A stretch of DNA of 60,982 nt, from the NCBI GenBank assembly GCA_023701245.1, contig JAMPXK010000010.1, forward strand, positions 1 through 60,982, in the 5' to 3' direction. Position numbers and translations under genes: made by a program. How positions within the stretch are numbered: position 1 is the first letter of the stretch; each line of letters opens with the position of its first letter. Shown here one piece after another: positions 13,377 to 55,297 of this stretch. A model generated the notes under the pieces. The model saw nothing but the letters and a program-made list of their open reading frames with translations. It did no database searches and was not told the origin of the DNA. The stretch is from Elusimicrobiales bacterium (GTDB lineage Bacteria; Elusimicrobiota; Elusimicrobia; Elusimicrobiales; UBA9959).

Positions 13377-15619
13377 GGAACGACGATACGCTGATGCACG
13401 TGCGCGGCACGTCGCAGTTCGTGGACGATATCCCCGTGCCCGGCTGCCTGCACGCCGTACTCTTCACCTCGCCTGTGCCCAAAGGCCGTATACGCTCGCT
13501 GGACGTCTCCAAAGCTGCCGCTGCGCCCGGCGTGGCCGCCGTCTACACGCACAAGGACGTGCCCGGCCTCAACCAGGTAGGCCATGTTTTCAAAGACCAG
13601 CCGCTGCTGGCCGTGGACGCCGTGGAATACATAGGCCAGCCTATAGCGCTGGTAGTGGCGGACACCAGGCGCAACGCCAAGAGGGCACTTAAGCTCATAG
13701 CGGCCGACATAGAGAAACTGGAGCCCATGCTGGACCCGCGTGCGGCGGCCGCCGCCGGGCAGATACACGGCAAGAAGCGCGTGCAGATTCACGGCGACCC
13801 CGACGCCGCTTTCGCCAAATGCAAACATGTTTTCGAAGGCCGCCTCGCGAGCGGCCCGCAGGAACACTTCTATTTCGAAACCCAGCGCGCCCTGGCCGTG
13901 CCCGGCGAGCATGACACCATAAAAGTGTACGCCAGCGCCCAGTCGCCCGGAGCCTTCCACCATCACCTGGCCGAAGTGCTGAACATACCCATGCACAAGG
14001 TGGAGTTGGATATCCGCCGCCTGGGCGGCGGTTTCGGCGGCAAGGAATCCACCGCCGTGTGGATAGTGGCCCCGGCCATGGCGGCCTTCCTGCTCAAGCG
14101 CCCGGTCAAGCTCATGCTGGAGCGCAACGACGACATAGCCACCACCGGCAAGCGCCACGCCTACGAATACGACTACCGCCTGGGCCTGGACGCCGAGGGC
14201 AATATACTCGCCTACGACATAACCCTCTACCAGCAGGCCGGCGCCTGCACCGACATTTCCCTGGCCGTTCTGGGCCGCTCTTTCCTGCATGTCTGCGGTT
14301 CCTACCGCATTCCCAATATCCGCGTCACGGGCCTGAGCTGCCGCACCAATATTCCCCCGAACAACGCTTTCCGCGGCTTCGGCGTGCCGCAGGGCACTTT
14401 CGCCATAGAGGCGGCCCTCTCCGCCGCCGCCCACAAACTGGGGCTGGAGCCGGAGGCCCTGAAGAAGAAGAACCTGCTCAAGGACGGCGACACCCTGCCT
14501 TACGGGGTGACGCTCTCCGGCGTGAATTCCGCCCGCTGCTGGGAAACCTTGGACGCCAAGGCGCATATAGCCCGGCGCCGCGCCGCCGTGGCCGCCTATA
14601 ACAAGGCCCACAAGGATACCAAGAAGGGCCTGGCGGCGGTGCCGGTCTGCTTCGGCATCTCTTTCGCCCAGACCGCGCTCAACCAGGCGAGCTCTCTCGT
14701 GCACATCTACGTGGACGGCAGCGTGGCCGTGAGCACCGGCGCCGTGGAAATGGGCCAGGGCGTTAACGCCAAGATCCGTATAGTGGCGGCCCGCACGCTG
14801 GGCGTGCCGCTGGAGCGGGTGCGGGTGGACACCACCAATACCTCGCGCATACCCAACGCTTCCCCCACCTCGGCCAGCACCGGCGCGGACCTAAACGGCA
14901 TGGCCACCAAGTACGCCTGCGAGCGCCTGCGCGACCGCCTTATAGCTTTCGCGGCCGGCGTTCTCAAGGCCGACCTTGCCGCCGTTACCATTAAGGACGG
15001 CGAGGTACTGGTTTCCGGCAAACCCGCGGGCCTGGGCTGGAACAAGCTGGCCAAGGACGCCCAGTGGGCCCGGGTGGACCTGGGCGAGCACGCTTTCTAC
15101 GCCACGCCGAACCTGCATTATGACATGGAGAAGGAACAGGGCCGGCCTTTCGCTTATTACGCCTACGGCACCTCGCTTACCGAGGTGAAACTGGACTGCC
15201 TGCGAGGCACCTACACGCTGGAAGCGGTGGACGTGGTGCAGGACGTGGGCGAATCCCTGAGCCCGGCCATAGACCTGGGCCAGACCGAAGGCGCCGTGAT
15301 ACAGGGCATGGGCTGGGCTACGATGGAGCAGCTCCGCTACGCGCCCGACGGCCGCGTGCTTACCGGCGTGAGCGCCTACAAGGTGCCGGACATCAAGTTC
15401 CTGCCGGCGCATTTCGACGTGACCCTCCTTAAGGACTCGACGAATCCCTACGCCGTCTGCAATTCCAAGGCCGTGGGCGAGCCGCCCTTTGTGCACGGCA
15501 TAGGCGCCTATCTGGCCGTGGCCGACGCCCTGCGCGCCGCCCGCCCGGACAAGGAGCCGCCGATGCTGCCGCTCACCCCGGAAAAGGCCTTCATGCACCT
15601 GCACGGGGGCGAAAAGTGA
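13373..15619 (+). CDS. xdhB: Xanthine dehydrogenase molybdopterin-binding subunit
   Basis: The catalytic Mo subunit (748 aa), converting hypoxanthine/xanthine towards urate. The residues that define purine hydroxylases are present. They are Q190 (ASAQS, bovine Q767), E225 (GGGFGGKE, bovine E802), R302 (GRSF, bovine R880), F336 in FRGFG (bovine F914), the FGISF phenylalanine (bovine F1009) and base E703 (AVGEPPF, bovine E1261). Cofactor-binding motifs such as GAVEMGQGVNAK are also intact. E225 and R302 together argue for a genuine purine substrate rather than an aldehyde. It overlaps xdhA and the moaD-like gene by 4 bp each. Confidence 0.93.
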   Translation: MRNDDTLMHVRGTSQFVDDIPVPGCLHAVLFTSPVPKGRIRSLDVSKAAAAPGVAAVYTHKDVPGLNQVGHVFKDQPLLAVDAVEYIGQPIALVVADTRRNAKRALKLIAADIEKLEPMLDPRAAAAAGQIHGKKRVQIHGDPDAAFAKCKHVFEGRLASGPQEHFYFETQRALAVPGEHDTIKVYASAQSPGAFHHHLAEVLNIPMHKVELDIRRLGGGFGGKESTAVWIVAPAMAAFLLKRPVKLMLERNDDIATTGKRHAYEYDYRLGLDAEGNILAYDITLYQQAGACTDISLAVLGRSFLHVCGSYRIPNIRVTGLSCRTNIPPNNAFRGFGVPQGTFAIEAALSAAAHKLGLEPEALKKKNLLKDGDTLPYGVTLSGVNSARCWETLDAKAHIARRRAAVAAYNKAHKDTKKGLAAVPVCFGISFAQTALNQASSLVHIYVDGSVAVSTGAVEMGQGVNAKIRIVAARTLGVPLERVRVDTTNTSRIPNASPTSASTGADLNGMATKYACERLRDRLIAFAAGVLKADLAAVTIKDGEVLVSGKPAGLGWNKLAKDAQWARVDLGEHAFYATPNLHYDMEKEQGRPFAYYAYGTSLTEVKLDCLRGTYTLEAVDVVQDVGESLSPAIDLGQTEGAVIQGMGWATMEQLRYAPDGRVLTGVSAYKVPDIKFLPAHFDVTLLKDSTNPYAVCNSKAVGEPPFVHGIGAYLAVADALRAARPDKEPPMLPLTPEKAFMHLHGGEK

Positions 15620-23366: not shown

Positions 23367-25706
23367 CTACTTCTTTACGGCTTTGATGGCGGCCAGGACT
23401 TTTTCCGGGGTGAACGGGAATTCGTTCAGGCGGGCACCGGTGGCGTTGTAGATGGCGTTGCCGATGGCGGGCGCGGGCCCGTTGATGCAGATCTCGGAAA
23501 CGCTCTTGGCGCCGAAGGGGCCGGTGTCCTCGTAGGAGGGCACGAGTATCGCCTTTATGGGCGGGCGGTCGCGCATGGAGTAGATGTGGTAGTCCGCGAA
23601 CGAGGCGTTCTGCATCTTGCCCTTCTCGTCGAACAGGTACTGCTCGGTGAGCGCGTAGCTGATGCCGTTGAGGGTGCCGCCCTCGGTCTGGCCCTCGCAG
23701 AGCGTGGGGTTGACCGCGGTGCCGCAGTCTATGGTCGAGACATAGTTGAGCACCTTCACAAAGCCCGTCAGCGTGTCCACTTCCACTTCCGCGAAATGTG
23801 CCGCGAAAGGCGGCGGGGATTTCTTGGTGATGTGGGACGCGGTGCCGATGATCTGGTATTGGTTCTTCTGGTACAGCGAATAGTTGGCTATGTCGCTGTA
23901 AGAGACCTTCTTGGAACCGTCGGCGTTGAGCACATGGGCGTCCTCGCAGTGGACTTCTTCCACTTTGAGGCCCAGCATCTCGGCGCCGGTGGCCAGTATC
24001 TGGCGCTTCGCGTCGGCGGCGGCCTTGCGCACCGCCTCACCCGACAGGTAGGTGGTGGAAGAGGCATAGGCGCCCACGTCGAAAGGCGTCATGTCCGTAT
24101 CCGACGAGTAGACTATCATCTTGTCGGTGGTGGTCTCCAGCTCTTCGGCCGCTATCTGGGCCAGCACCGTATCCGAGCCGGTGCCCAGGTCCGTGGCGCC
24201 CACATTGAGGTTGAAAGAGCCGTCCTCGTTGATCTTTATGGTGGCGGCGCCCATGTCTATGTCCGGGATGGACGAGCCCTGCATGAGGCAGCACATGCCT
24301 ATGCCACGGCGGTAGCGGCCGGTCTTCTTGCGCCAGTCCTGGCGACCCTCCCAGCCGGCGGCCTCCGCGCCCTGCACTATACACTCGGCCAGGGCATTGG
24401 AGCCCACGGTCATGGGCAGGCCCTCGCGGCCCTCGCCCAGCGCCTGGAAGATAGGCGAGCCTTCGCCGGGGCGGATGTGGTTGATCTGGCGGAACTTCAT
24501 GGGGTCCATGCCTATGGCCTCGGCCATGTGGTCCATCAGGGACTCGATGGCGAAGAAGGCCTGCGTGGCCCCGAAGCCGCGGTAAGCACCGCCGACGGGC
24601 AGGTTGGTGTAGTAGGACTTGCCGTCGAAGAGGATATTGTCGCAGTGGTACAGCGGCAGGGTCTTGCCGCCGGAGCACGACACCACGGTAAGGCCGTGGC
24701 CGCCGTAGGCGCCGGTATTATTGATGCACTCCAGGCCTATGGCGGTGATGGTGCCGTCCTTCTTTACACCGGTGCGCAGGCGGATGCGGAAGGGATGGCG
24801 CGTGCGGCCGGTGCGGAAGGTCTCCTCGCGGTCGAAGCGCCAGAGGCAGGGGCGGCCGGTGCGCAGGGCGAACATGGCCGTAACGTCTTCCAGAAGTATC
24901 TCCTGCTTGCAGCCGAAGCCGCCGCCGATGCGGGGCTTCACCACGCGGATCTTCTGCACGGGTATGCCCAGCGTGCGCGCCACTATGCGGCGGCAGTGGA
25001 AAGGCACCTGCGTGGAGGTGGTAATGAGGATGCGCCCGGCGGGGGTCATCTGCGCCATGGAGGTATAGGGCTCTATGGGGCAATGCTGGGCGTACGGGGT
25101 CTCGTACATCTCGTCGAAGGTAAAGTCGGCCTCGGCCATGCCTTTCTTGAAGCTGCCGGCCTCGCAGGCCACATGGGCCACCAGGTTCTTCTTGGGCTCG
25201 TAGACGATCGGGATCGGCACATGGGCCTCGGGCTCGTCGTGAATGACAGGCGCGCCCGGCGCCATGGCCTCGTCCAGCGTGAAAACGGGCTTAAGCACCT
25301 CGTATTCGACTTTTATAGCCTCGAGCGCGGCCAGGGCCTGCTCTTCGGTCTCGGCGGCCACGGCGGCCACGCGGTCGCCCACGAAGCGCACCTTATTGTC
25401 GAACATGAAAGTGTCGTAAGGAGACGGCTCAGGGAAACCCTGGCCGGCGGTGCAATGCACGATGCGCGGCACATTGCCGTGCCAGAGCACGCATTTTACG
25501 CCGGGCATCTTCTCCGCCTTGCTCACATCCATCTTCTTGATGCGGGCGTGGGCGTGCGGGCTCCAAAGCATCTTGATAACGAGCGCGTCCTTGGGCAGGA
25601 AGTCGGCCACATAGGAATCCTTGCCGAGCGCCAGCTGCATGGCGTCTATCTTGGTGACGGAAGTGTTGACCTGCTTGAGGTTCTTGGCGAGTTCGTGCCT
25701 TTTCAT
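23367..25706 (-). CDS. Molybdenum hydroxylase, Mo-binding subunit (xanthine dehydrogenase family, non-canonical active site)
   Basis: A 779-aa catalytic subunit of a second Mo hydroxylase. Cofactor motifs are present: TTSTQVP (the conserved Gln), RIGGGFGCKQE, GGAYRGFGATQ, GATDLGTGSDTV and a putative base Glu in AKSVSEICING. The position of bovine Glu802 is Gln268, and no arginine sits at the bovine Arg880 position (about 32 residues before AYRGFG the sequence reads SCSGGK). The substrate is therefore probably not xanthine bound as in XDH; another purine, another N-heterocycle or an aldehyde is possible. The ATG at 25706 overlaps the Fe-S gene by 4 bp; a longer upstream reading is rejected. 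Confidence 0.88.
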   Translation of the reverse strand: MKRHELAKNLKQVNTSVTKIDAMQLALGKDSYVADFLPKDALVIKMLWSPHAHARIKKMDVSKAEKMPGVKCVLWHGNVPRIVHCTAGQGFPEPSPYDTFMFDNKVRFVGDRVAAVAAETEEQALAALEAIKVEYEVLKPVFTLDEAMAPGAPVIHDEPEAHVPIPIVYEPKKNLVAHVACEAGSFKKGMAEADFTFDEMYETPYAQHCPIEPYTSMAQMTPAGRILITTSTQVPFHCRRIVARTLGIPVQKIRVVKPRIGGGFGCKQEILLEDVTAMFALRTGRPCLWRFDREETFRTGRTRHPFRIRLRTGVKKDGTITAIGLECINNTGAYGGHGLTVVSCSGGKTLPLYHCDNILFDGKSYYTNLPVGGAYRGFGATQAFFAIESLMDHMAEAIGMDPMKFRQINHIRPGEGSPIFQALGEGREGLPMTVGSNALAECIVQGAEAAGWEGRQDWRKKTGRYRRGIGMCCLMQGSSIPDIDMGAATIKINEDGSFNLNVGATDLGTGSDTVLAQIAAEELETTTDKMIVYSSDTDMTPFDVGAYASSTTYLSGEAVRKAAADAKRQILATGAEMLGLKVEEVHCEDAHVLNADGSKKVSYSDIANYSLYQKNQYQIIGTASHITKKSPPPFAAHFAEVEVDTLTGFVKVLNYVSTIDCGTAVNPTLCEGQTEGGTLNGISYALTEQYLFDEKGKMQNASFADYHIYSMRDRPPIKAILVPSYEDTGPFGAKSVSEICINGPAPAIGNAIYNATGARLNEFPFTPEKVLAAIKAVKK

Positions 25707-26218
25707 TTCTTCCCCCCTTTGGCGGAGGCTTTCTTTTTTGGCTCGGCGGCGGCGCGGTCGAGCGTCTTGCGCAAGGCCACCCAGATCTTCTCGTAGCCGG
25801 TGCAGCGGCAGAGATTGCCGTCCATGTATTCCTTGGCCGTCTCGTCGGAAATGTCCTTCTCGGCCTCCATCAGGGCGGTGGCGCTCATGATGATGCCGGG
25901 GATGCAGTAGCCGCATTGCACGGCGCCGGCGGCCACCAGCTCCTGCTGTATCGGGGCCGGCTTGTCGTAGGTGCCCATGCTCTCGATGGTGCGCACCTTG
26001 CGCCCTTCGGCCTGCATGGCGTAGAGCAGGCAGGCGTACACCGCGCGCCCGTCCATGATGACGGTGCAGGCGCCGCAGGTGCCCTGGCCGCAGCCGTACT
26101 TGGTACCCTTATAGCCCTCGCGGCGCAGCAGGTCCAGCAGTTTCTCGTCGGGGCGGGTGGCGAAGGTTTTCTTTTCGCCGTTAAGCGTGAAGGAAACGGA
26201 GCAGGTATGGGTCTTCAT
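25703..26218 (-). CDS. Molybdenum hydroxylase, [2Fe-2S] subunit
   Basis: A 171-aa iron-sulfur subunit with the two expected domains. The plant-type cluster has CGQGTCGACTV and the later ACLLYA cysteine. The helical domain has QCGYCIPG and NLCRCTGYEKIW. A Lys-rich tail (AAEPKKKASAKGGKK) extends beyond the usual end. It passes electrons from the Mo site to the FAD subunit. The gene order FAD, Fe-S, Mo with abutting or overlapping ends is typical of three-subunit hydroxylases. Confidence 0.93.
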   Translation of the reverse strand: MKTHTCSVSFTLNGEKKTFATRPDEKLLDLLRREGYKGTKYGCGQGTCGACTVIMDGRAVYACLLYAMQAEGRKVRTIESMGTYDKPAPIQQELVAAGAVQCGYCIPGIIMSATALMEAEKDISDETAKEYMDGNLCRCTGYEKIWVALRKTLDRAAAEPKKKASAKGGKK

Positions 26219-27064
26219 TTAGGCGGTCCTCCCGCGGGCGAACTCGGCCGCCCTTTCGAGGGCGTCCACTATGGAAACTTCGGCGAGGTTGGCGACATAT
26301 TCCGCGCTCATGCCTTCCTGTTTGCACCACTTGGCGTCGTTATTGGCCAGCGAGGCGGCGGCGCGGAAGGTCTCGGCGGCGGGAGCCTTGCCGACCAGCG
26401 CGGCTTCCACGGCGCGCAGGCGCTTGGGGAAGGGGATGGCGGAGCCGGCGGCCACGCGGGCGGACTTGATGACCCCGCCGTCTAGTTCCAGCAGGGCGGC
26501 TATGGTGACCATGGAGAAAGCGGCGGCATTGCGGGCGGCCTTCACGGAACCGAAGCCGTGATGGGCCTTTAGCACCGGTATTTTCACTGCGGCGAGCAGG
26601 TCCCCGCCGCGGAACAGACGGGCCGGCTGCGAGGAGAAATATTCGTCGGCGCCCATCTCCTTGGTCTTGCCCGAGTAGATGACCATTTTGGCGTCCATGG
26701 CGAGCAGCACCACGGGCAGGTCCGCCCAGGGGAAGACGCGGCAGATATTGCCGCCGATGGTGGAGACGTTGCGGATCTGGTGGGTGGAGATGCGCCGGCA
26801 GATCTCGTGCATGGCCCAGCGGGGGCCGCGGTAGCGCTGTATGTCGGACAGCGGCGTGGCCGCGCCTATCTCGAAATAATTGCCCTTCTGGCGTATATAG
26901 GAAAGGCCGAGCCGCGTAACGTCCACGGCGGAGACGGGGGTTTTGCCGGGCATGAAATGCAGGGCGGTGCCGCCGGCCAGGGGCATGCCCTTGGGCCCGA
27001 GTTTGCGCAGGCTGGCGCGCGCTTGCGCGAGGCTCTCGGGACGGATGAATTCACATAGCTTCAT
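26219..27064 (-). CDS. Molybdenum hydroxylase, FAD-binding subunit
   Basis: A 281-aa flavoprotein subunit (CO-dehydrogenase flavoprotein fold). Near the N terminus is PLAGGTALHFMPGK, then HQIRNVSTIGGNICRVFPWADLP, the usual FAD-binding segments, and a C-terminal domain beginning near GFGSVKAARN. It receives electrons from the [2Fe-2S] subunit and probably reduces NAD or another carrier. It is first in the three-gene operon, with AGGACC upstream of the ATG and an AT-rich minus-strand TATATC/TATATT promoter-like patch in 27085-27115. Confidence 0.9.
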   Translation of the reverse strand: MKLCEFIRPESLAQARASLRKLGPKGMPLAGGTALHFMPGKTPVSAVDVTRLGLSYIRQKGNYFEIGAATPLSDIQRYRGPRWAMHEICRRISTHQIRNVSTIGGNICRVFPWADLPVVLLAMDAKMVIYSGKTKEMGADEYFSSQPARLFRGGDLLAAVKIPVLKAHHGFGSVKAARNAAAFSMVTIAALLELDGGVIKSARVAAGSAIPFPKRLRAVEAALVGKAPAAETFRAAASLANNDAKWCKQEGMSAEYVANLAEVSIVDALERAAEFARGRTA

Positions 27065-32112: not shown

Positions 32113-32913
32113 TCAGCGCAGGCGCATATGCCCGGCGTCGCGCTTGTAATGGAACTTGATGATCTCGGCAAGTATTGAAACGGCTATCTCCCCCGGAGCC
32201 TTCCCACCCAGGTTCAGGCCGACAGGCGAGTGGACCCTGGGGTCTTTCAGCGGAAAAAGCTTCTTCTTGCCCAGCAGGCGGAAGATCTCCCCCACCTTGT
32301 CCTTGCTGCCTATCATCCCGATATAGGCGGCCTTCGTGCGCAGCAGGGCCTCCAGGCACTCCCGGTCCAGCGCGTGGCCGCGGGTAACTATAACGGCATA
32401 AGTGTCCGCGTCCACGCCGGCCTTGGCCACGGCCTTGTGGGGAGCCTCGTTGATTATATCCAGCGCCCCGGGGAATCTTTCGGGATTGGCGAATTCCGCC
32501 CTGTCGTCGGCCACCAGGAAGGGATAGCCGGCCAGGCGGCAGGCTTCGGCTATCTTGACACCCACGTGGCCGCCGCCCAATATCAGCACCTTGAAAGGGT
32601 TCTTGTAAACGTCTATAAAGACTTCCATCTTCCCCATGCAGATCATGCCGGTATTGCCTTTGGGCTTGAGTTCGAAAGAGAACTTGCCGCCTTCGCCGGC
32701 CTTCACGCACTCTACGGCCTTCTTTATCACCAGGGCTTCCACGGTGCCGCCGCCCACGGTGCCCTCTATGGCGCCGTCGGCGTAGACCAGCATCCGGGCG
32801 CCGGCGTCGCGCGGGGTCGAGCCGCCCGCTTCTATAACGGTGACGAAGGCCGCGGCGCGGCCGGCGTCTATGGCTTCGGCGAGGAGTTTTATGATGTTCT
32901 TCTGGTCTTTCAT
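32113..32913 (-). CDS. xdhC: XdhC-family molybdenum cofactor insertion/sulfuration protein
   Basis: XdhC binds molybdenum cofactor, promotes its sulfuration and inserts it into xanthine dehydrogenase-type enzymes. The 266-aa protein has the N-terminal XdhC/CoxI domain (GGSTPRDAGARMLVYADG, EGTVGGGTVEA) and the C-terminal Rossmann domain (LILGGGHVGVKIAEACRLAG, YIGMIGSKDKV). It is last in the operon headed by 8-oxoguanine deaminase and containing mocA. Two Mo hydroxylases in the window (11982-15619 and 23367-27064) are the obvious clients. Confidence 0.92.
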   Translation of the reverse strand: MKDQKNIIKLLAEAIDAGRAAAFVTVIEAGGSTPRDAGARMLVYADGAIEGTVGGGTVEALVIKKAVECVKAGEGGKFSFELKPKGNTGMICMGKMEVFIDVYKNPFKVLILGGGHVGVKIAEACRLAGYPFLVADDRAEFANPERFPGALDIINEAPHKAVAKAGVDADTYAVIVTRGHALDRECLEALLRTKAAYIGMIGSKDKVGEIFRLLGKKKLFPLKDPRVHSPVGLNLGGKAPGEIAVSILAEIIKFHYKRDAGHMRLR

Positions 32914-34469: not shown

Positions 34470-35704
34470 GTGTACCTCAGAAAAACCCAGTATATTATGG
34501 CATTTATGAAAGTGAGCGGTACCCCGACGCGGGCGAACTCCAGGAAGGTAATGGTGGCGCCGGAGCGCTTCTCCGCGGTCTGGATGATGATAACGTTGCT
34601 GGCGGCCCCGAGGATGAACAGGTTCCCGGCGAAAGTGGAAGCGGCGGCCAGCGCCATCAGTTCAGGCGTGCCGGCCCCTGCGTGCTGGAGCATGGGCAGG
34701 TACAGCGCCACCAGCGGCACATTGGAAATAAGCTGGCTGAGCAGCACGCTTACGGTCATTATAGGGCCAAGGCCGGTAATGTCCGCCCCCGAACCGGCGA
34801 TCAGCCCCTGGAAAAAGCCCGTGTCCCAGACGGCGCGCATCAGCACGAACATGCCGGCGAAGAAAGCCAGCGTACTCCAGTCCACCCGGCGGACCAGCTC
34901 TAACCGGCGCGGGCTCAGCAGCAGCCCCGGCGCGGCGGCCGCGAGGGCGATCCAGGTAAGGCGGAAATCCCAGGCGGGGTTCAGCGAGACCAGCAGCACC
35001 TTGGCGGCTATGGCCGCCCCAAGCGCTCCGGCGGTGACCTTGGCCAGGCGCGCGAGGGCCGCGTCGCGTACCGGTTCCTGGGAATGCCTCAATTCCGTCT
35101 TCCGGAATTCCGCCCGGTAGAAATGCCTTACCAGCAGGAAAACCGCGCCCAGGTTCAGGAGCGTGGGCAGGGCCAGGTATTTCAGGAAGGTCAGGAAAGG
35201 CGCGGCCACCTCCCCCTTCACCGCCACCAGCAGGTTCTGGGGATTGCCTATAGGGCTCATGACGCTGCCCGTGGTGATGGAGAAGGCCAGCGCCAGCAGA
35301 AGTGCCTTGGGCGGGATGGAATGCTTGCGCGCCAGCAGCAGCGCCACCGGCGTGCCGGCTATGGCCAGCGTGTCGTTCATCAGCAGGGCAGAAGCGAGCC
35401 CCATGAAGAAGACCAGCGTCAGCAGCAGCCCCTCCTCGGTGCGCGCCCGCTTGAAGACCTCGAATTCCGCGTGGGCCAGCCAGCCGCTCAGCTCCAGCGT
35501 CTGCCCGGCGGCGAACATGCCGAAGAGAAAGACCATGACGTCCCAGTCTACGGCGGCCGCGGCGGCGGCGGGGCTTATGCCGCCGGCCAGCAGCACGGCC
35601 GCCGCCCCGGCGCACATCACCTGCCAGATCCCGAAACGGAACCTGCCCGCCTGCCGCACGGCGATCAGCAGGAAGACGGCCGCGAGTACCGCCAGGGGGA
35701 ACAT
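34466..35704 (-). CDS. ArsB/NhaD-type ion transporter (12 predicted helices)
   Basis: A 412-aa polytopic membrane protein of the ion transporter superfamily that holds ArsB, NhaD and SLC13 carriers. Family features include the MVFLFGMFAAGQTLELSGW block, the re-entrant-loop LLMNDTLAIAGTP, SPIGNPQNLLVAVKG (NPQN motif) and the second-half counterpart LSQLISNVPLVALYLP followed by AGNLFILGAASNVIIIQ. No arsenic genes are nearby. Its place between mocA and a cyclase in the purine operon makes uptake or efflux of an organic anion or oxyanion (for example molybdate-related or a purine product) thinkable, but substrate cannot be assigned. Confidence 0.8.
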   Translation of the reverse strand: MFPLAVLAAVFLLIAVRQAGRFRFGIWQVMCAGAAAVLLAGGISPAAAAAAVDWDVMVFLFGMFAAGQTLELSGWLAHAEFEVFKRARTEEGLLLTLVFFMGLASALLMNDTLAIAGTPVALLLARKHSIPPKALLLALAFSITTGSVMSPIGNPQNLLVAVKGEVAAPFLTFLKYLALPTLLNLGAVFLLVRHFYRAEFRKTELRHSQEPVRDAALARLAKVTAGALGAAIAAKVLLVSLNPAWDFRLTWIALAAAAPGLLLSPRRLELVRRVDWSTLAFFAGMFVLMRAVWDTGFFQGLIAGSGADITGLGPIMTVSVLLSQLISNVPLVALYLPMLQHAGAGTPELMALAAASTFAGNLFILGAASNVIIIQTAEKRSGATITFLEFARVGVPLTFINAIIYWVFLRYT

Positions 35705-36303
35705 CAGCCCGCCTTTACCAGCGCGTCGTAATCTTCGGGCGTGTCGAAATCCCTGATGATCCCGGGATCGCTCACTTCAAGGTCGGTTATCTTAACAGAG
35801 GAATGGTGGGTGACCCAGTGCAGGCCCTTGTCTGGCGGGGCCTCGAAGCAAAGTGCCCGGTAGGCGCCCGGGATGAGTACGGGGTGACCGCGCTTGAGGC
35901 GGGCGTCGGCGGCCCTGTACGTGCGCGGGATGACCAGCGATCCCTTGGCCGAGCGCCAGCAGTCTATAACTTTGACATACGTCTCCGCCTGGATGGTAGG
36001 CTGGTCGGCCAGGCAGACCAGGTAGCCTTCGGCCGGCGCCGCTGCGTCCAGCCCCGCGCGCAGCGAGGAAAGCTGCCCGTGTTCGGGGTGGGGATTGACG
36101 GTCACTTTTTCCCCGGCAGGCTGCCAGGCCGCGAGGATCTCCGCCGAAGCCCGCCCCAGCACCACCACCCTGTCCTCCACGCCGGCCTTGCGCAGCGCGG
36201 CGCAGACGTGCTCTATGAAGGGCCGGCCGCGCCACTGAAGCAGGACTTTGGGCCTGCCCATCCTGGAAGATTCCCCGGCGGCGAGCACTATGGCGGAAAG
36301 CAT
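35704..36303 (-). CDS. mocA: MocA-like molybdenum cofactor nucleotidyltransferase
   Basis: MocA transfers CMP onto molybdenum cofactor (MobA would use GMP), making the dinucleotide form used by many bacterial xanthine dehydrogenase-family enzymes. The 199-aa protein has the GT-A-like N-terminal signature AIVLAAGESSRMGRPKVLLQWRG, the LVCLADQPTI motif typical of MocA, and the RGHPVLIP segment. The ATG at 36303 is chosen; an upstream reading to 36570 runs into the phosphofructokinase gene. It sits 11 bases after pfk and overlaps the transporter by one base. Confidence 0.9.
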   Translation of the reverse strand: MLSAIVLAAGESSRMGRPKVLLQWRGRPFIEHVCAALRKAGVEDRVVVLGRASAEILAAWQPAGEKVTVNPHPEHGQLSSLRAGLDAAAPAEGYLVCLADQPTIQAETYVKVIDCWRSAKGSLVIPRTYRAADARLKRGHPVLIPGAYRALCFEAPPDKGLHWVTHHSSVKITDLEVSDPGIIRDFDTPEDYDALVKAG

Positions 36304-36314
36304 GCCGGTCGCCT

Positions 36315-37424
36315 TCAATCCCCGAAGGAAATGCCCAGGCTGCGCGCGGTAAGGATGGAATCGCAGTTGAGCGGGACGGTCTTCAGGCGCTGGGTAGCCT
36401 GGGCCAGCGGCACGTAGCGTACCCTGGGCGGGTCCAGCGCCACCATTACGCCGCTGCGGCCCTCGTCCAGCGCCCGCACGGCGGCCGCGCCGAAGCGCAG
36501 GGAAATAAGGCGGTCGAAAGTGGTGGGGCTGCCGCCGCGCAGCAGGTGTCCCAGCACGACGGTGCGGCATTCCCGCCCGGTCAGTTCCTGCAGTTCTTTG
36601 GCCACGCGCTCGCCGCAGCCGCCCAGTTTCTCCTGCCGGCCCAGCTCTTTGCTGACCACGCAGACGCCGCCGCCCTTGGGCCTGGCGCCCTCGGCCACTA
36701 CCACTATGGCGAAATACTTATTGCGCTTCTCCAGCGCCTTCATGGCCGCCGCTACCTTGCGGATATCGTAGGGGATCTCGGGGATCAGGATGGCGTCGGC
36801 CGTGCCGGAGATGCCCGTATTGAGCGCTATCCACCCGGCGTAGCGCCCCATCACCTCTATGACCATTATCCTGCGGTGGGCCTCGGCGGTGGAGTGCAGC
36901 CGGTCCAGGCATTCCGTAGCGAAGGAAACCGCGGTGTCGAAACCGAAAGTGGCCACAGTGCCTTTGAGGTCGTTATCGATGGTCTTGGGCACGCCTATCA
37001 CGCGCAGGCCTCTTTGCGCCAGGAGGTTGGCTATCCCCAGCGAGCCGTCGCCGCCCAGCGCCACCAGCGCGTCTATCCCGTTGCGCTTGAAGGCGGCCAC
37101 CAGCTCGCCGGTACGGTCCTTTTCATACCAGCGGCCGTCAGGGCCCAGCGTCGGGTATTTGGCGGGGTTGCCCTTGTTGGTGGTGCCCAGGATGGTCCCG
37201 CCCAGGTGCGTGATGCCGCGCACCCGGCCGCGGGTCAGCGGCAGCAGGCCGCCCTCGGGATACTCGCCCGGCATCAGCAGGCCGTTGTAGCCGTCGCGTA
37301 TGCCCACCACCTCCCAGCCCTTGTTCAGGGCCGCGATGACCACCGACCTTATGACGGCGTTCAGCCCCGGGGCGTCCCCGCCCCCGGTGTTTATGGCGAT
37401 CTTTCTTATCCTGGCTTTCGGCAT
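36315..37424 (-). CDS. 6-phosphofructokinase, group III type
   Basis: Phosphorylates fructose 6-phosphate in glycolysis. The 369-aa protein has the PFK motifs NTGGGDAPGLNAVI, GGTILGTTNKG, GGDGSLG, PKTIDND, MGRYAGWIAL and LGHLLRGGSPTTFDR. The donor-specificity positions are mixed. GGDGS has Gly at E. coli position 104, as in ATP enzymes. PKTIDND has Lys at position 124, as in PPi-dependent and group III enzymes. ATP is the more likely donor, but pyrophosphate is not excluded. Its place inside a purine-catabolic operon is unexpected; gaps to neighbours are only 11-12 bases. Confidence 0.9.
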   Translation of the reverse strand: MPKARIRKIAINTGGGDAPGLNAVIRSVVIAALNKGWEVVGIRDGYNGLLMPGEYPEGGLLPLTRGRVRGITHLGGTILGTTNKGNPAKYPTLGPDGRWYEKDRTGELVAAFKRNGIDALVALGGDGSLGIANLLAQRGLRVIGVPKTIDNDLKGTVATFGFDTAVSFATECLDRLHSTAEAHRRIMVIEVMGRYAGWIALNTGISGTADAILIPEIPYDIRKVAAAMKALEKRNKYFAIVVVAEGARPKGGGVCVVSKELGRQEKLGGCGERVAKELQELTGRECRTVVLGHLLRGGSPTTFDRLISLRFGAAAVRALDEGRSGVMVALDPPRVRYVPLAQATQRLKTVPLNCDSILTARSLGISFGD

Positions 37425-37436
37425 AGTCCCCCCTCG

Positions 37437-38813
37437 TCAGATCCCCGCTTTCCTGTAGAGCGAAGCCGCGGCCTTGTTGGCGCGCCGCGCCAGTTCGAAT
37501 TCATCCACCTGCGTCAGGCGCCCGTCGCGGACCACCACCTTGCCGTTCACGACGGTATACTTGGTGCGGTGGGAGGCGCCGCAGAACAGCAGCGAGGCCA
37601 GCGGGTCGGACTTGGAGCCGGCGAAATCCAGCCCGCTCACGTCGAAGATGGCCAGGTCGGCGGCCTTGCCGGGTTCGATGGAACCGATATCGCGGCGCCC
37701 GAGCACCGCGGCGCCGCCGCGGGTGGCGAGCCGGAAGGCCTCCCGCGCGGGCATGGCTTTCACGCCGGTGCCTACGCGGTGCACCAGCATGCACTGCCGC
37801 ACCTCGCCCAGCATGTCGCAGGAATCGTTGGAGGCGGAGCCGTCCACGCCCAGACCTACCGGCACTTTATGCCTGAGGAACATGGGCACCGGGGCGATGC
37901 CGGAACCCAGCCGCAGGTTGGAGCAGGGGCAATGGGCCACGCCGGTATGCGTGCGCCCCATCTTTTTAGCCTCGGCCTCGTTGATATAGACGCAGTGGGC
38001 GAACCAGGCGTTGCCTTCCTCCACCCAGCCCACGGACTCCATGTATTCCAGCGGGCGCATTTTAAAGAGTTTTTTGCAGAAGGCTTCCTCGTCCCTGGTC
38101 TCGGCCAGGTGGGTGTGCATGCGCACGTCCCACTTCTTGGCCATCTCCGCCGTGAGCTTCAGCAGTTCCGTGGTGACGGAGAACGGCGAGCAGGGCGCCA
38201 TGGCCACGTGCGTCATGGCGAACTTCTCCCGGCCGTGGAACTTGTTGATGAGGCGCTCGCAGTCCTTGAGGATAAAGTCCTCTTTCTGCACGACGGAATC
38301 CGGCGGCAGGCCGCCCTTGCTGCGGCCGCGCGACATGGAACCGCGGGTGGCCGTGAAGCGCATGCCCACGGCGCGCGCGGCCTCTATCTGCGTGTCTATG
38401 AAGAACCCGCTGTTCTTCTTCGGGAACAGGTAGAGGTGGTCGGAACTGGTGGTGCAGCCCGTAAGCAGCAGTTCGCCCAGGCCCGCCTGCGTGCTGGCGT
38501 AAATAGCCTCGGGGTTCACGTGCTTCCAGATGTCGTAGAGATAGACCAGCCAGTCGAAGAGCTCCGCGTCCTGCACCTTGGGCAGGTTGCGGGTCAGGGT
38601 CTGGTACAGGTGGTGATGGGTGTTCACGAAGCCGGGCAGGACCACGCAGCCCTTGGCGTCCAGGACGGAATCGGCCTTGACCCTGAGGCCTTTGCCGACC
38701 TTCTTTATTTCCGCGCCCTCGATATAAACGTCGCCGCCGCTGATCTCGCGGCCGGCGTCATCCATGGTCGCCAGCACCAGGGCGTTCTTTACCAAAAGGG
38801 TCTTGGGCTTCAT
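37437..38813 (-). CDS. 8-oxoguanine deaminase (amidohydrolase family)
   Basis: Deaminates 8-oxoguanine to urate. The 458-aa protein belongs to the cog0402 amidohydrolases. Metal ligands are visible in GFVNTHHHLYQTLTRN, HTHLAET and WFAHCVYIN, and the catalytic Asp is in GLGVDGSASNDSCDMLGEVRQCM, a block characteristic of 8-oxoguanine deaminases. The TTSSDHLYLFP segment also matches. The related hydroxyatrazine hydrolases are the main alternative. It is the first gene of the six-gene minus-strand operon and is divergent from the DPD-like flavoprotein and SsnA, which makes a purine role convincing. Confidence 0.85.
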   Translation of the reverse strand: MKPKTLLVKNALVLATMDDAGREISGGDVYIEGAEIKKVGKGLRVKADSVLDAKGCVVLPGFVNTHHHLYQTLTRNLPKVQDAELFDWLVYLYDIWKHVNPEAIYASTQAGLGELLLTGCTTSSDHLYLFPKKNSGFFIDTQIEAARAVGMRFTATRGSMSRGRSKGGLPPDSVVQKEDFILKDCERLINKFHGREKFAMTHVAMAPCSPFSVTTELLKLTAEMAKKWDVRMHTHLAETRDEEAFCKKLFKMRPLEYMESVGWVEEGNAWFAHCVYINEAEAKKMGRTHTGVAHCPCSNLRLGSGIAPVPMFLRHKVPVGLGVDGSASNDSCDMLGEVRQCMLVHRVGTGVKAMPAREAFRLATRGGAAVLGRRDIGSIEPGKAADLAIFDVSGLDFAGSKSDPLASLLFCGASHRTKYTVVNGKVVVRDGRLTQVDEFELARRANKAAASLYRKAGI

Positions 38814-38900: not shown

Positions 38901-41351
38901 ATGAAGAAGATCACTTTCCTCACCGACGCCCAGCTCAAGACCGAGGCCGAACGCTGCCTGTACTGCGAGGACAAGCCCTGCCAGAAAGCCTGCCCGGCCG
39001 ACTGCTCCCCGGCGGACTTCATAATGGCCGTGCGCCAGATGGCGGACTCCGATTTCAAGCGCTCGGCCGCGCTGATCATGGGGCACAACACCTTCGGCGG
39101 CGTCTGCGGCGCGGTCTGCCCCGACTGGTTCTGCGTGAAGGCCTGCTCCCGCAAGCTCTTCGACAATCCCATCCAGATCCCCGCGGTGCAGGCCGCCGTG
39201 GTGCAGAAAGCCAAGGAACTGGGCGTCATGCCGAAGTTCAGGCAGGCCAGGCCCAACGGCAAAAAAGTGGCCGTAATAGGCGGGGGCCCAGCCGGCTTCT
39301 CGGCCGCGGGCACGCTGGCCCAGCTCGGCTACAAGGTGGACGTGTTCGAGAAGGACAAGAAGGCCGGCGGCGCCTGCAACCTCATCCCGGACGCCCGCTT
39401 TCCCAAAGAAGTGCTGAAGACCGAAATAGAGTGGGTGAAAGGCCTCGGCGACATAACCGTCAAGACCGGCGCCGGCGTCAAAGACCCCGCCTCGCTGCTC
39501 AAGAAATACGATTCCGTCATCGTCACCGCCGGGGTGGAAGAGCAGCTCAAGCTCGGGATAGAGAACGAGACCCTGGGCGTGGAAGGCCTGGAGTACCTGC
39601 GCAATACCGGCCGGTACAAGGTGAAGGGCAAGAACGTGGCCGTGATAGGCGGCGGCGCGGTGGCGGCCGACTGCGCCATGAAGGCGCTCACGCTGGGCGC
39701 GGCCCGGGCGGAGATCTTCACGCGCAAGAATATCGGCGACATCCAGCTGCCGGAGCACGAACTGCGCGATATCCTGAAGGCCGGCATCAACATCAACGGC
39801 CGCTCGCGCATCACCGGCATACTGAAGGGCGGCGGCATAAGGATCGTCCGCCTCGACGACAAGTCCCGGGACGTCCCCGGCACCGAACAGGTCCGCACGG
39901 ACATCCAGTTCACCGTGCTGGCCATCAAGAACATCCCGGTCTTTACGGACAAGAAACAGAAGGGCGTCTTCCTGGCCGGCGACTGCCGCAACGGCGCGGC
40001 CACCGTGGTGGAGGGCACCGCCTCCGCCAAGAACGCCGCGCTGGAAGCCCACGCCTTCATGCAGGGCAAAAAGGCGCCCGCCATCCCGGACAACAAGAAA
40101 AGCCATGTAGTCCTGGCCGGCCGCGACCTCACGCCCGTGGACCTGACCACGGACTTCTTCGGGCGCAAGCTCAAGTCCCCGTTCATAATCTCCGCCTCCC
40201 CCCACTCCGACGGTTACGAGCAGGTGAAAGCCGCCTACGAGGCCGGCTGGCCCGGCGTGGTGATGAAGACCGCTTTCGACGGGCTGCATATCCACATCCC
40301 CTCCGAATACATGGTGACCTTCAACGAGAGCACCTACGGCAATTCCGACAATGTGAGCGGCCACCCGCTGGACCGCGTCTGCAAAGAAGTGGCCCGCCTG
40401 GTGAAGGAATACCCGGACCGCCTCACCGCGGCCTCCACCGGCGGACCGGTGACCGGCGACGACGAGTTCGACCGGAAAGGCTGGCAGTCCAATACGCTGA
40501 AGCTGGAGAAGGCCGGCGCGATGGCCATAGAATACTCGCTGTCCTGCCCGCAGGGCGGCGACGGCACCAAGGGCGACATCGTTTCCCAGGACCCGGAGCT
40601 CGCGGCCAAGATCATAGGCTGGGTGATGGAAGTTTCGGACCCCGAAGTGCCGAAACTGTTCAAGCTGACCGGCGCCGTCACCTCCATCTGGCAGGTGGTC
40701 AACGCTATAAAGCAGGTCTACGCGAAATACCCGCACAAGAAGGCCGGCATAACCCTGGCCAACTCTTTCCCCGCGCTGGCTTTCCGCCCGCGCATGAGCG
40801 GCAAAGGCAAATGGGAAGAAGGCATGATAGTGGGCATGAGCGGCGAGGGCGTGGCCCCCATCAGCAACCTCACCATAGCCAAGGCAGTAAATCTCGGCGT
40901 GCCGATCTCAGGCAACGGCGGGCCCATGGACTACAAGGCCGCGGCGCATTTCCTGGCGCTGGGCGCCAAGTCCGTGCAGTTCTGCACCATAGTGATGAAG
41001 TACGGCTTCGGCGTAATCGGCGAACTGGAGAGCGGCCTCAGCCACATGCTGGAAGAGAAAGGTTACAAGTCGGTGGAAGAGTTCATAGGCTGCGCCCTGC
41101 CCGGCCCCGTCACCAACTTCCCCGACCTCACCCCGGTAAAGAACATTCCCTCGGTAGAAGCCGCCCTCTGCCGCCATTGCGGCAACTGCGAGCGCTGCGG
41201 TTATCTCGCAGTGAAACTCGACGGCCAGAAGGTGCCGCAGTTCGACGCTTCCAAATGCATAGGCTGCTCGCTCTGCGTGAAGAAGTGCTTCTCCGGCGCG
41301 CTCAAGATGCGCAAGCGCACCTCCGCGGAACTCAAGGTCTGCCCCGACTAA
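38901..41351 (+). CDS. Compact dihydropyrimidine-dehydrogenase-like Fe-S flavoprotein (PreT-PreA fusion type)
   Basis: An 816-aa fusion with DPD domain order. It has N-terminal twin [4Fe-4S] cysteines (RCLYCEDKPCQKACPADC and CGAVCPDWFCVKAC), an FAD site (GGGPAGFSAAGTLAQLGY), a NAD(P)H site (GGGAVAADCAM), a DHOD-like FMN barrel (from about residue 420; SGNGGPMDYKAA), and C-terminal ferredoxin cysteines (LCRHCGNCERC, CIGCSLCVKKC). The DPD active-site loop LSCPHG...GLACGQDPE reads LSCPQGGDGTKGDIVSQDPE here. The catalytic Cys is replaced by V561, with S562 beside it. It is about 200 aa shorter than mammalian DPD. Flanking aminohydrolases suggest reduction of a purine-derived ring or electron bifurcation rather than uracil reduction. 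TGGAG precedes the ATG. Confidence 0.85.
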   Translation: MKKITFLTDAQLKTEAERCLYCEDKPCQKACPADCSPADFIMAVRQMADSDFKRSAALIMGHNTFGGVCGAVCPDWFCVKACSRKLFDNPIQIPAVQAAVVQKAKELGVMPKFRQARPNGKKVAVIGGGPAGFSAAGTLAQLGYKVDVFEKDKKAGGACNLIPDARFPKEVLKTEIEWVKGLGDITVKTGAGVKDPASLLKKYDSVIVTAGVEEQLKLGIENETLGVEGLEYLRNTGRYKVKGKNVAVIGGGAVAADCAMKALTLGAARAEIFTRKNIGDIQLPEHELRDILKAGININGRSRITGILKGGGIRIVRLDDKSRDVPGTEQVRTDIQFTVLAIKNIPVFTDKKQKGVFLAGDCRNGAATVVEGTASAKNAALEAHAFMQGKKAPAIPDNKKSHVVLAGRDLTPVDLTTDFFGRKLKSPFIISASPHSDGYEQVKAAYEAGWPGVVMKTAFDGLHIHIPSEYMVTFNESTYGNSDNVSGHPLDRVCKEVARLVKEYPDRLTAASTGGPVTGDDEFDRKGWQSNTLKLEKAGAMAIEYSLSCPQGGDGTKGDIVSQDPELAAKIIGWVMEVSDPEVPKLFKLTGAVTSIWQVVNAIKQVYAKYPHKKAGITLANSFPALAFRPRMSGKGKWEEGMIVGMSGEGVAPISNLTIAKAVNLGVPISGNGGPMDYKAAAHFLALGAKSVQFCTIVMKYGFGVIGELESGLSHMLEEKGYKSVEEFIGCALPGPVTNFPDLTPVKNIPSVEAALCRHCGNCERCGYLAVKLDGQKVPQFDASKCIGCSLCVKKCFSGALKMRKRTSAELKVCPD

Positions 41352-41354
41352 ACC

Positions 41355-42680
41355 ATGAAGAAAACCATACTTATCAAGAACGGCATTATAGCCACGCTCG
41401 GCGAAAAGAACAAGGTCCTGGCCGGGCACGCGCTGCTTATAGAGGACGGGCTGATAAAGAAGATCGGCCCGCAGAAGAACTTCAAGGGTAAATACTCCAA
41501 GGTCCTGGACGCCGCCGGTAAACTGGTGCTGCCCGGTTTCATAAACGCGCACATGCACTTTTACAGCACCTTCGCGCGCGGCCTGGGCAAGGCCGACCCC
41601 TCCCGGAACTTCGTGGAGATCCTCAACAACCTCTGGTGGCGCCTGGATAAAAAGCTTACCAACGCCGACTCCTACTACAGCGCCGTCATCCCGCTCATCA
41701 ACGCCATCCGCAAAGGCACCACCACGCTCATAGACCACCACGCGAGCCCCTTCGCCATCACCGGCTCCCTCGCGGCCGTGGAGAAGGCCGTGCGCGAGAC
41801 CGGCCTGCGCGCCTGCCTGTGCTACGAGGTCTCCGACCGCGACGGCAAGGAGAAAGCGAAGGAGGGCCTGGACGAGAACACCGCCTTCCTGGCCAACGCG
41901 GCCGCCGCCGGCGATAACGTGATAAAGGCCATGTTCGGCCTGCACGCCTCCTTTACCCTCTCCGACGAAACGCTGGAAGAGGCGGCTTACCGCGGCCACA
42001 AGCTGGGCGCGGGCTTCCATATCCACACCGCCGAATCGCAGGCGGACCAGCTGCACTGCGAATCCCATCACAAGATCCGCGTGGTAGAGCGCCTGCGCGA
42101 CTACGGCATCCTGGGGCGCAAGTCCATCGCCGCCCATTGCGTGCACGTCTCGGAGAAGGAACTCGATATCCTCCGGGAAACCGGCACCGCCGTGGTCCAC
42201 AACCCGCAGTCCAACGCCAACAACTCCGTCGGCATCGCCGACATCACCGCCATGACGCAGAAGGGCGTACTGGTGGGCCTGGGCACCGACGCCATGACGG
42301 TGAATATGCTGGAGGAGGTCCGCTGCGCCCTCTGGCTGCAGCACCTCAAGCGCGACCCGTCGCAGGGCTTCATGGAGGCCGCCAACGCGCTGCTGGTGAA
42401 CAACGCCAAAATAGCCAACCGCTATTTCAAAGGCCTGGGAGAGCTGAAGGAAGGCTTCGCGGCGGATATCGCCATAATGGATTATCTCCCCCCCACGCCC
42501 ATGGACGCGGCCAACTTCGCGGGGCATTTGATCTTCGGCATCAGCCAGAGCGCCGTGGATACCACCATAGCCGCGGGCCGGGTGCTTATGGAAGGCAAAA
42601 AGCTCAAGCTGGATATCGACGAGGAAGAAGTCTCGCGCAAGTCCGCCGAACTGGCCAAAAAGTTATGGAGCCGCTTCTGA
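41355..42680 (+). CDS. ssnA: SsnA-type aminohydrolase
   Basis: A 441-aa cog0402 amidohydrolase matching E. coli SsnA in length and in blocks such as GFINAHMHFYSTFARGL, NNLWWRLDKKL, TTLIDHHASPFAITGSL, HIHTAES, AAHCVHVSEKEL and the catalytic GLGTDAMTVNMLEE. ssnA is conserved in anaerobic purine-degradation clusters beside ygfK and xanthine dehydrogenase genes. The exact substrate is not settled, but a deamination or ring-opening step is expected. It starts three bases after the DPD-like gene, so the two are co-transcribed and probably act in one pathway. Confidence 0.9.
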   Translation: MKKTILIKNGIIATLGEKNKVLAGHALLIEDGLIKKIGPQKNFKGKYSKVLDAAGKLVLPGFINAHMHFYSTFARGLGKADPSRNFVEILNNLWWRLDKKLTNADSYYSAVIPLINAIRKGTTTLIDHHASPFAITGSLAAVEKAVRETGLRACLCYEVSDRDGKEKAKEGLDENTAFLANAAAAGDNVIKAMFGLHASFTLSDETLEEAAYRGHKLGAGFHIHTAESQADQLHCESHHKIRVVERLRDYGILGRKSIAAHCVHVSEKELDILRETGTAVVHNPQSNANNSVGIADITAMTQKGVLVGLGTDAMTVNMLEEVRCALWLQHLKRDPSQGFMEAANALLVNNAKIANRYFKGLGELKEGFAADIAIMDYLPPTPMDAANFAGHLIFGISQSAVDTTIAAGRVLMEGKKLKLDIDEEEVSRKSAELAKKLWSRF

Positions 42681-44791: not shown

Positions 44792-44803
44792 AGGACCCTA
44801 ACC

Positions 44804-51231: not shown

Positions 51232-51235
<4 letters not shown>
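50390..51235 (-). CDS. HAD-family phosphohydrolase with C-terminal extension
   Basis: A 281-aa HAD phosphatase with the nucleophile motif DIDGTLIK, a helical cap (about residues 20-95), the Ser/Thr-type GLGTGN motif and the metal-binding GDTHRDVEAAKEAG. About 70 residues follow the HAD core (SDLKPWLIWLGL onwards), including RGTYICPDSPIEHAHYGRTGMDLRDIE, which I do not recognise. It overlaps the SIS gene and hutI by 4 bp each. A sugar phosphate is the natural guess given the SIS neighbour. Confidence 0.82.
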
Positions 51236-52499
<1,264 letters not shown>

Positions 52500-52500
<1 letters not shown>

Positions 52501-52997
52501 CAGCGGAAGTTTTCGAACTGCAGGCTCAGGCCGTAATCCCCGGAGCGCAGCAGGCTCATCACGTTCTGCAGTTCGTCCTTCGACTTGGAAGTGACGCGCA
52601 GGGTATCGCCCTGTATGGAAACGTTGGCCTTCAGCTTCTGGTCCTTGATGGTCCGTATCATCTCCTTGGCCTTCTCCTGGGGTATGCCCTGCTGCACCTT
52701 CACCGCCATCTTGGCCGTGCCGCCCAGGGCGCTCTCCACCTTCTGCCCCTCGAAATTCTTCACCGGCAGGCCGCGCTTGGAGATCTTGGTCAGGAGCACG
52801 TCGTAAAGCGCCTTCACCTTGTAGTCGTCGGAAGACTGCAGCATTATGGTATTGGCCTTCTTGTCGAAGTTTATCTCGGATCCGGAATCCTTGAAGTCGT
52901 AGCGGTTAATCACTTCCTTCATGGCGATGGCGATCGCCTCGTCCACCACCGTATATTCCACTTTGGAAACCACGTCGAAGCTGAAGTCAGAAGCCAT
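52500..52997 (-). CDS. yajQ: YajQ family nucleotide-binding protein
   Basis: A 165-aa protein of the UPF0234/YajQ family, starting [20 protein letters not shown] and containing YDFKDSGSEI, VKNFEGQKVE and the C-terminal RVTSKSKDELQNVM. Two RRM-like ferredoxin folds are typical. Members bind nucleic acid or nucleotides, and a Xanthomonas homologue binds cyclic di-GMP. It overlaps hutI and the lipoprotein gene by one base each, so it is translated from the hut transcript although no link to histidine degradation is known. Confidence 0.93.

Positions 52998-53616: not shown

Positions 53617-53620
<4 letters not shown>
52997..53620 (-). CDS. FlgO/CsgG-like lipoprotein
   Basis: A 207-aa predicted lipoprotein ([20 protein letters not shown], lipobox LAAC) with the FlgO/CsgG-like fold. 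Visible blocks are [49 protein letters not shown] and [22 protein letters not shown] Pro/Arg-rich insertion ([15 protein letters not shown]) splits the domain. It resembles the N-terminal domain of the barrel fusion at 30675-31970, so the genome carries at least two members. It overlaps hutU by 4 bp and yajQ by one base. Confidence 0.8.
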
Positions 53621-55275
<1,655 letters not shown>

Positions 55276-55297
55276 CTGACTTCCTCCTTAAACCCGT

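Follow-up and report, generated by a model that had tools for sequence, protein, structure and literature searches.

Reductive breakdown of uric acid by anaerobes was described in 2025. According to the available portions of that study (PMC12507026), XdhD converts urate to yanthine (2,8-dioxopurine), YgfK or UacX reduces yanthine, SsnA opens the ring, and HyuA, YgeW/UacY, YgeY and YgeX act thereafter. The same portions report that two kinds of reductase were assayed for the dearomatising step, that YgfK or UacX together with SsnA converts yanthine to ureidomethylhydantoin and 5-ureidodihydrouracil, that modelling ties Glu606 of XdhD to yanthine formation, and that the SsnA network already includes Elusimicrobiota. 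In dihydropyrimidine dehydrogenase (DPD), as far as the accessible text of the sources goes, the proton-donating Cys is C671, within the motif LNLSCPHG (PMC8097209), and 5-fluorouracil is bound in the pig enzyme by N609 (N1 and O2), T737 (O2), N736 (N3 and O4) and N668 with S670 (O4) (PMC10970046). Here we analysed 60,982 nucleotides from an Elusimicrobiales bacterium (assembly GCA_023701245.1, contig JAMPXK010000010.1; the whole stretch is referred to as the window), in which an open reading frame (ORF), P0001, encodes an 816-residue reductase with the architecture of DPD beside an ssnA gene.

Taking sequence and gene context together, we consider it very probable that P0001 is a reductase of yanthine in the anaerobic reductive uric-acid pathway, dependent on a reduced nicotinamide cofactor (NAD(P)H), built like DPD and perhaps using its chemistry. 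On the best reading of its surroundings it would occupy the slot of YgfK in E. coli and UacX in C. difficile, since ssnA, ygeY, ygeW, hyuA and xdh, which neighbour the fused gene in MAGs (metagenome-assembled genomes) labelled with other phyla, are genes of this pathway. P0001 has the domain order of DPD/PydA in one chain, namely iron-sulphur (Fe-S), flavin adenine dinucleotide (FAD), NAD(P)H, flavin mononucleotide (FMN) barrel and ferredoxin, with Pfam matches to Fer4_20 at residues 7-106 (the DPD-type N-terminal Fe-S domain), Pyr_redox_2 at 121-363, DHO_dh at 415-717 (the dihydroorotate-dehydrogenase barrel, for which P0001 passes PF01180) and Fer4 at 779-802. An AlphaFold2 model computed from P0001 and 49 relatives (50 sequences) reached a predicted local distance difference test score (pLDDT) of 89 and a predicted template-modelling score (pTM) of 0.89, with residues 550-555 below a pLDDT of 50. 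Its best match in the PDB was pig DPD, 1h7w_A, over the whole chain (E 6.9e-57, TM 0.82 by query length, 22% identity). The domains and the model thus bear out a preliminary description, made from the sequence alone, in which all cofactor modules of DPD were said to be kept; its estimate that the protein is about 200 residues shorter than mammalian DPD was likewise accurate (816 against 1025 residues in pig DPD, a difference of 209).

The N- and C-terminal Fe-S Cys residues of the fused family were invariant wherever these parts are present, and Gln97, found in 50 of the 50 sequences, aligned with a Gln of the pig motif GGLQQ that we take to be a cluster ligand. As regards cofactor preference, P0001 has R275-K276 where 27 of the 50 sequences have Leu-Glu, and the donor may be either NADH or NADPH. 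Four fused proteins (L135, L146, G006:C11 and G017:C79) carry an insert of about 30-35 residues between the flavin reductase half and the FMN half. Among the best 25 of the 72 NCBIfam families matched by P0001, no curated cut-off was passed: the PreA model NF006183 scored 207.4 bits, under its cut-off of 335, and the YgfK model TIGR03315 scored 132.5 bits, under 835.3, its best stretch being model positions 442-722 in the GltD-like part.

The preliminary description had proposed that the catalytic Cys of DPD is lost, because the pig loop GLACGQDPE reads GDIVSQDPE in P0001. The motif is indeed present, with V561 and S562 as reported, and it proved not to be the site of the proton donor. In PDB entries 1h7x (C671A) and 7m31 (C671S) the substitution falls in LNLS-[A/S]-PHG, where P0001 aligns with LSCPQG, so that Cys549 corresponds to pig Cys671. 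An alignment that would place a conserved Cys at the active base had itself been named as the result that would overturn the proposal, and precisely such a Cys was found: Cys549 of the LNLSCP-type loop is invariant in 81 of 81 proteins, comprising P0001 and the best 80 of its 297 relatives, the set used for all residue counts out of 81. Moreover, the Cys position in GLACGQ reads V, T, I or S in 11 of 11 PreA sequences and Cys in none. The claimed loss of the catalytic Cys was therefore abandoned.

The substrate pocket differs from that of DPD at one ligand. The fused family keeps N481, N621 and S548 (pig N609, N736 and S670), and residue 622 (pig T737) is Ser in 57 and Thr in 24 of the 81 proteins. 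The position of pig N668, however, is Ser546 in 81 of 81, as against Asn in 11 of 11 PreA sequences and in one class 1B dihydroorotate dehydrogenase, so that the full pyrimidine ligand set N609/N668/N736/T737 is absent from the family. In addition, Glu611 of pig DPD is Asp483 in P0001, and there is a short insert near residues 514-520. With the rings numbered alike, O4 of uracil would coincide with N9 of yanthine, and Ser546 would accordingly face a part of yanthine that uracil lacks.

These residues bear directly on whether P0001 is simply a DPD of the PydA/PreTA type acting on uracil or thymine, with purine neighbours present by chance or through shared nitrogen control. Such an enzyme would have the whole-length DPD fold, and would keep the catalytic Cys and the equivalents of N609, N736 and T737; hyuA, which adjoins the reductase gene directly upstream in two loci (L065 and L070), would suit it, and the window's own genome (G000) has no separate PreA-like match, so that redundancy does not exclude a pyrimidine role there. 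We nevertheless consider an ordinary DPD unlikely, given the Ser for Asn exchange, a PreA score of 207 bits against a cut-off of 335, the ssnA gene beside the reductase in 70 of 80 loci, and phylogeny. In a tree of 33 FMN-part sequences, 20 fused proteins formed one clade (100/100) apart from the 11 PreA sequences and from the UacX and PyrD sequences, the latter two lying on long branches with unsure placement. Furthermore, four genomes with the fused gene also carry PreA genes (46-48% identity to the E. coli protein), as PreT-PreA pairs with an ELNFSCPHM motif in G006, G033 and G250, and about 7 kb from a hyuA homologue in G086. The fused protein is thus not the only candidate for uracil reduction in those genomes.

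To return to yanthine, we examined how the fused gene is distributed and what surrounds it. Among 294 Elusimicrobiota genomes, an orthologue (at least 55% identity) was present in 66 and SsnA over cut-off in 61, with both in 60. A Fisher value of 2e-54 takes no account of kinship, and we do not rely on it. Six genomes have the orthologue without SsnA over cut-off (G016, G164, G178, G238, G276 and G292), and at least three of them have a split ssnA or a nearby contig end. In G016, the ssnA next to an intact reductase gene is divided in two, as though interrupted (L137:11456-12840), and in G178 the reductase gene is found among xdh-like genes, with three different molybdenum (Mo) subunit ORFs in 13.8 kb (L079:215-13781). 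The sole genome with SsnA and no orthologue, G154, has a protein of the YgfK N-terminal type.

Gene neighbourhoods were compared at 80 loci from genome_contigs, the best 80 of the 297 relatives, of which 56 were grouped as Elusimicrobiota (six of these, with at least 88% identity, bear no more than 'bacterium' as their title) and 24 as others. The titles of these others name KSB1, Ignavibacteria, Bacteroidota, Verrucomicrobia (with Opitutaceae), Planctomycetota, Holophagaceae, Eisenbacteria, Bdellovibrionales, Deltaproteobacteria, Bacillota and Chloroflexi, and two read only 'bacterium'. The fused protein was full-length in 76 of the 80 loci, the gene being cut by a contig end or broken in the other four, and a second gene of PreT- or PreA-like kind was labelled in none of the 80. 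The ssnA gene lay within 3 kb of the reductase gene in the 70 loci mentioned above (51 of 56 Elusimicrobiota and 19 of 24 others) and within 500 bp in 65 of 80. In eight of the ten loci without ssnA nearby, one flank or both are shorter than 2 kb, and the genome of L189 has ssnA on another contig. Genes for xdh are often close, with W_xdhMo1 as the best match in 18 and W_xdhD in 9 of the 80 loci.

Co-location with SsnA and further pathway genes was also found, mostly with ssnA alone in Elusimicrobiota. Eight of the 80 loci, none of them from Elusimicrobiota, combine ssnA with at least three of ygeY, ygeW, hyuA and a pyridoxal phosphate (PLP) enzyme gene (L164, L173, L178, L180, L185, L191, L192 and L197); xdh genes are present in seven of these, and L192, which is short, shows none. 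In L185, SsnA (509 bits, cut-off 455.5), YgeY (535, cut-off 321.5) and YgeW (596, cut-off 500) are all over cut-off, whereas the candidate for HyuA, which is related to dihydropyrimidinase, is under cut-off. A threonine-synthase-like PLP enzyme takes the place of YgeX (diaminopropionate ammonia-lyase) in L185 (6440-7579), and similarly in L164, L173, L180, L191, L192 and L197. YgfK over cut-off was found in 0 of 13 non-Elusimicrobiota genomes with the fused gene (representing 13 of the 24 such loci), every listed match covering the GltD-like part only. In the window's own genome, other contigs encode YgeW over cut-off (G000:C59), YgeY over cut-off (G000:C62) and a HyuA homologue of 38% identity (G000:C20), and in 20 chosen phylum genomes, 18 of them with the fused gene, YgeW was over cut-off in 10 and YgeY in 19. 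This context supports what the preliminary description had already suggested, an analogue of YgfK in function, linked to ssnA and Mo hydroxylases, whose probable role is to reduce a ring derived from a purine.

Several observations weigh against assigning P0001 to yanthine. No ygeY, ygeW, PLP enzyme or hyuA gene was found in the flanks (up to 10 kb) of the 56 Elusimicrobiota loci, and HyuA is a pyrimidine enzyme as well. YgeX was over cut-off in 0 of the 20 chosen phylum genomes, and the one Elusimicrobiota PLP copy scanned (L117:16081-17319) passes a threonine synthase model and may be just that, so the end of the pathway is only putative. In another group, SsnA was over cut-off in 18 of 149 genomes; of 16 ssnA regions fetched there, 5 contained YgfK and none contained the fused gene or UacX, indicating that ssnA also pairs with other partners. 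The UacX of Cetobacterium somerae has a gap of about 12 residues beside its aligned Ser, which removes the SCP loop and the Cys; a reductase type that acts on yanthine therefore seems not to need this Cys, and the proposal that Cys549 protonates C5 is weakened. We found no reported activity in the literature for the fused clade. Finally, all 80 loci are titled as MAGs, where misbinning is possible and phylum labels may be wrong. As a separate observation, ten ssnA regions of another group (L226, L230-L234 and L236-L239) showed no YgfK, UacX or fused reductase in the stretch fetched.

The table lists features of the window. As the preliminary description had stated, ssnA adjoins the reductase gene and an 8-oxoguanine deaminase gene is divergent from it, both products passing curated cut-offs. 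SsnA would be the expected next step, ring opening, and the XdhD-like protein the expected preceding one, from urate to yanthine. The latter has an LGEG segment with Glu606, a reading that depends on this segment because two xanthine dehydrogenase sequences lacking LGEG also have Glu in that column. Similarity begins at its residue 79, and the true start is probably near 25706.

Features of the 60,982-nucleotide window, with scores and identities supporting each label
Feature	Position	Strand	Remarks
DPD-architecture reductase P0001	38901..41351	+	N-terminal Fe-S ~7-106, FAD/NAD(P)H ~115-400, FMN barrel ~410-735, C-terminal ferredoxin ~750-806
Active-site segment S546-L-S-C549-P-Q-G-G-D554	40536..40562	+	Ser546 for pig Asn668; Cys549 = pig Cys671
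ssnA aminohydrolase	41355..42680	+	starts 3 bp after reductase; NF005540 539 bits (cut-off 444), TIGR03314 504 bits (cut-off 455.5)
8-oxoguanine deaminase, divergent neighbour	37437..38813	-	NF006055 644 bits, cut-off 532
XdhD-like Mo hydroxylase large subunit	23367..25916	-	42% identity to E. coli XdhD; under curated cut-offs
FAD-binding subunit, YgfM-like	26219..27064	-	28% identity to E. coli YgfM over 194 residues; XdhB nearly as close; under curated cut-offs
XdhC-type maturation factor	32113..32913	-	36% identity to E. coli YqeB; under curated cut-offs
MocA-like molybdenum cofactor cytidylyltransferase	35704..36570	-	138.5 bits, under cut-off 186.45
Xanthine-dehydrogenase-like small and Mo subunits, two ORFs	11982..15619	+	under curated cut-offs; without LGEG segment

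The xanthine-dehydrogenase-like pair, perhaps an ordinary xanthine-oxidising enzyme, and the 8-oxoguanine deaminase would also suit reduction of a different purine-derived ring (xanthine, urate itself, an 8-oxopurine or hypoxanthine), the product of which would then go to SsnA. We assign this only a slight chance: the Glu606 of the XdhD-like protein and the YgeY/YgeW/HyuA sets elsewhere match the yanthine route, and 6-oxopurines would lack a C6-H matching C6 of uracil. A further alternative is that P0001 transfers electrons between NAD(P)H and an acceptor, feeding or draining the Mo hydroxylases, whose genes are often close. This is extremely improbable, as an electron shuttle would have no need of an invariant substrate pocket with its catalytic Cys loop, and a YgfM-like FAD subunit is already encoded in the window. 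The related idea in the preliminary description, that P0001 routes electrons from the Mo hydroxylases, found no support, the protein carrying its own FAD/NAD(P)H module.

Two other gene groups lie in the window. On the minus strand, 51232-56815 encodes imidazolonepropionase, urocanase and an aromatic amino acid lyase, resembling a histidine degradation set near purine genes. On the plus strand, 42866-47949 encodes aconitase and, after it, two ORFs, of which the latter is related to succinate-CoA ligase alpha; these two ORFs pass no curated model and resemble a two-subunit ATP-citrate lyase.

If P0001 is a yanthine reductase, a mechanism can be proposed. An XdhD-type Mo hydroxylase would remove the 6-oxo group of urate to give yanthine. 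NAD(P)H would reduce the FAD of P0001, electrons would pass through [4Fe-4S] clusters to FMN, and FMN would reduce the pyrimidine ring of yanthine. If the chemistry follows that of DPD, hydride would be delivered to C6 and Cys549 would protonate C5, yielding 5,6-dihydroyanthine. This product would carry an amidine at C4, which SsnA could attack; one tetrahedral intermediate losing either N3 or N9 might explain both reported SsnA products, and hydrolysis by SsnA would pull the unfavourable reduction forward.

The biological proposal was largely anticipated by the 2025 work; a single-chain, DPD-like clade distinct from PreA, UacX and YgfK is what we did not find described there. In the literature consulted, no fused reductase was reported for the pathway, and the word 'fused' occurs 0 times in the main text of PMC12507026. 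Its neighbourhood count, being based on PF01180, may well have included fused proteins under UacX, because P0001 passes that model. With about even confidence, we propose a separate class of yanthine reductase beside YgfK, UacX and a putative F420 type, single-chain, present in MAGs of about a dozen phylum labels and reusing the Cys-acid and hydride-to-C6 chemistry of DPD on a purine. On this proposal, Ser in place of Asn668, the one side-chain ligand of the pyrimidine to be replaced, would signal the change of substrate from pyrimidine to purine, and the configuration at C5 would be fixed by Cys549. If this is correct, the fused family would be a further, self-powered solution to the dearomatising step, spread through many environmental anaerobes, and would connect the degradation of purines with the well-studied chemistry of DPD, a drug target. 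A single position, Asn or Ser, three residues ahead of the catalytic Cys, would also serve as a marker to tell uracil reductases from putative yanthine reductases. The available part of a commentary (PMC12990295) lists the step fixing the C5 stereocentre as unresolved; since the acid Cys is present in the fused family and its loop is missing from the UacX examined here, a comparison of the two would test directly which step is responsible.

Among the closest known systems is mammalian DPD (PydA; PDB 1h7w), with which P0001 shares the five-domain order in one chain, the catalytic Cys and the equivalents of N609 and N736, with T737 as Ser or Thr. P0001 is 209 residues shorter than DPD and 22% identical to it, has Ser546 for Asn668 and Asp483 for Glu611, and lies in a uric acid rather than a pyrimidine gene context. 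E. coli PreT/PreA has the same modules on two chains, with Cys137 of PreA corresponding to Cys549; PreA differs in having Asn134 where the fused family has Ser, and is 30% identical.

UacX is described in the available text of PMC12507026 as an FMN and ferredoxin protein without a FAD domain, which P0001 is not. Our comparison used one protein, from Cetobacterium somerae, identified by its gene context in a cluster with ssnA, dpaL, ygeY and D-aminoacylase. It shares with P0001 the FMN barrel and C-terminal ferredoxin, the pathway slot in an ssnA cluster and the Ser aligned at the Asn668 position. In contrast, it lacks the Fe-S/FAD/NAD(P)H half, is 23% identical to P0001 and groups with the PreA and PyrD sequences on a long branch. 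We also considered whether the fused protein might be an orthologue of UacX extended by an N-terminal half, and dropped the idea: Cetobacterium UacX is nearer to PreA (26-31%, 11 sequences) and PyrD (32%, one sequence) than to the fused proteins (20-23%, 20 sequences), although its place in the tree is unsure.

Within the phylum, YgfK was over cut-off in one of the 294 genomes (G088), and hits to its N-terminal part only were found in ten; in those of the ten whose ssnA was seen, the gene is mostly a paralogue that shares about 35% identity with that of the window. A strict mutual exclusion of YgfK and the fused gene was considered and, beyond the 13 non-Elusimicrobiota genomes described above, dropped, as genes of the YgfK N-terminal type also lie near the fused gene in L184 and L188. 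Such proteins, of about 630-770 residues, occur as well in L104-L109 and L111-L113; the two scanned (L104 and L106) have ferredoxin-type matches and no GltD-like module, and in L106, L107, L109 and L111 the gene lies near the SsnA paralogue and an xdh gene, possibly forming another purine-type reductase system. The FMN part of P0001 could not be reliably aligned with the N-terminal domain of YgfK (hhalign probability 4%), and YgfK was left out of the residue comparison. Like E. coli YgfK, P0001 takes the slot beside ssnA in a urate gene set and carries its own NAD(P)H/FAD/Fe-S module. Unlike P0001, YgfK has 1032 residues and the reverse module order, as the preliminary description had recognised and as partial TIGR03315 hits to model positions ~1-454 (N-terminal) or ~440-890 (GltD-like) confirm. 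The further suggestion that P0001 was independently assembled fits relative to YgfK; nothing shows independence from the DPD/PydA lineage, and the layout of P0001 is that of DPD.

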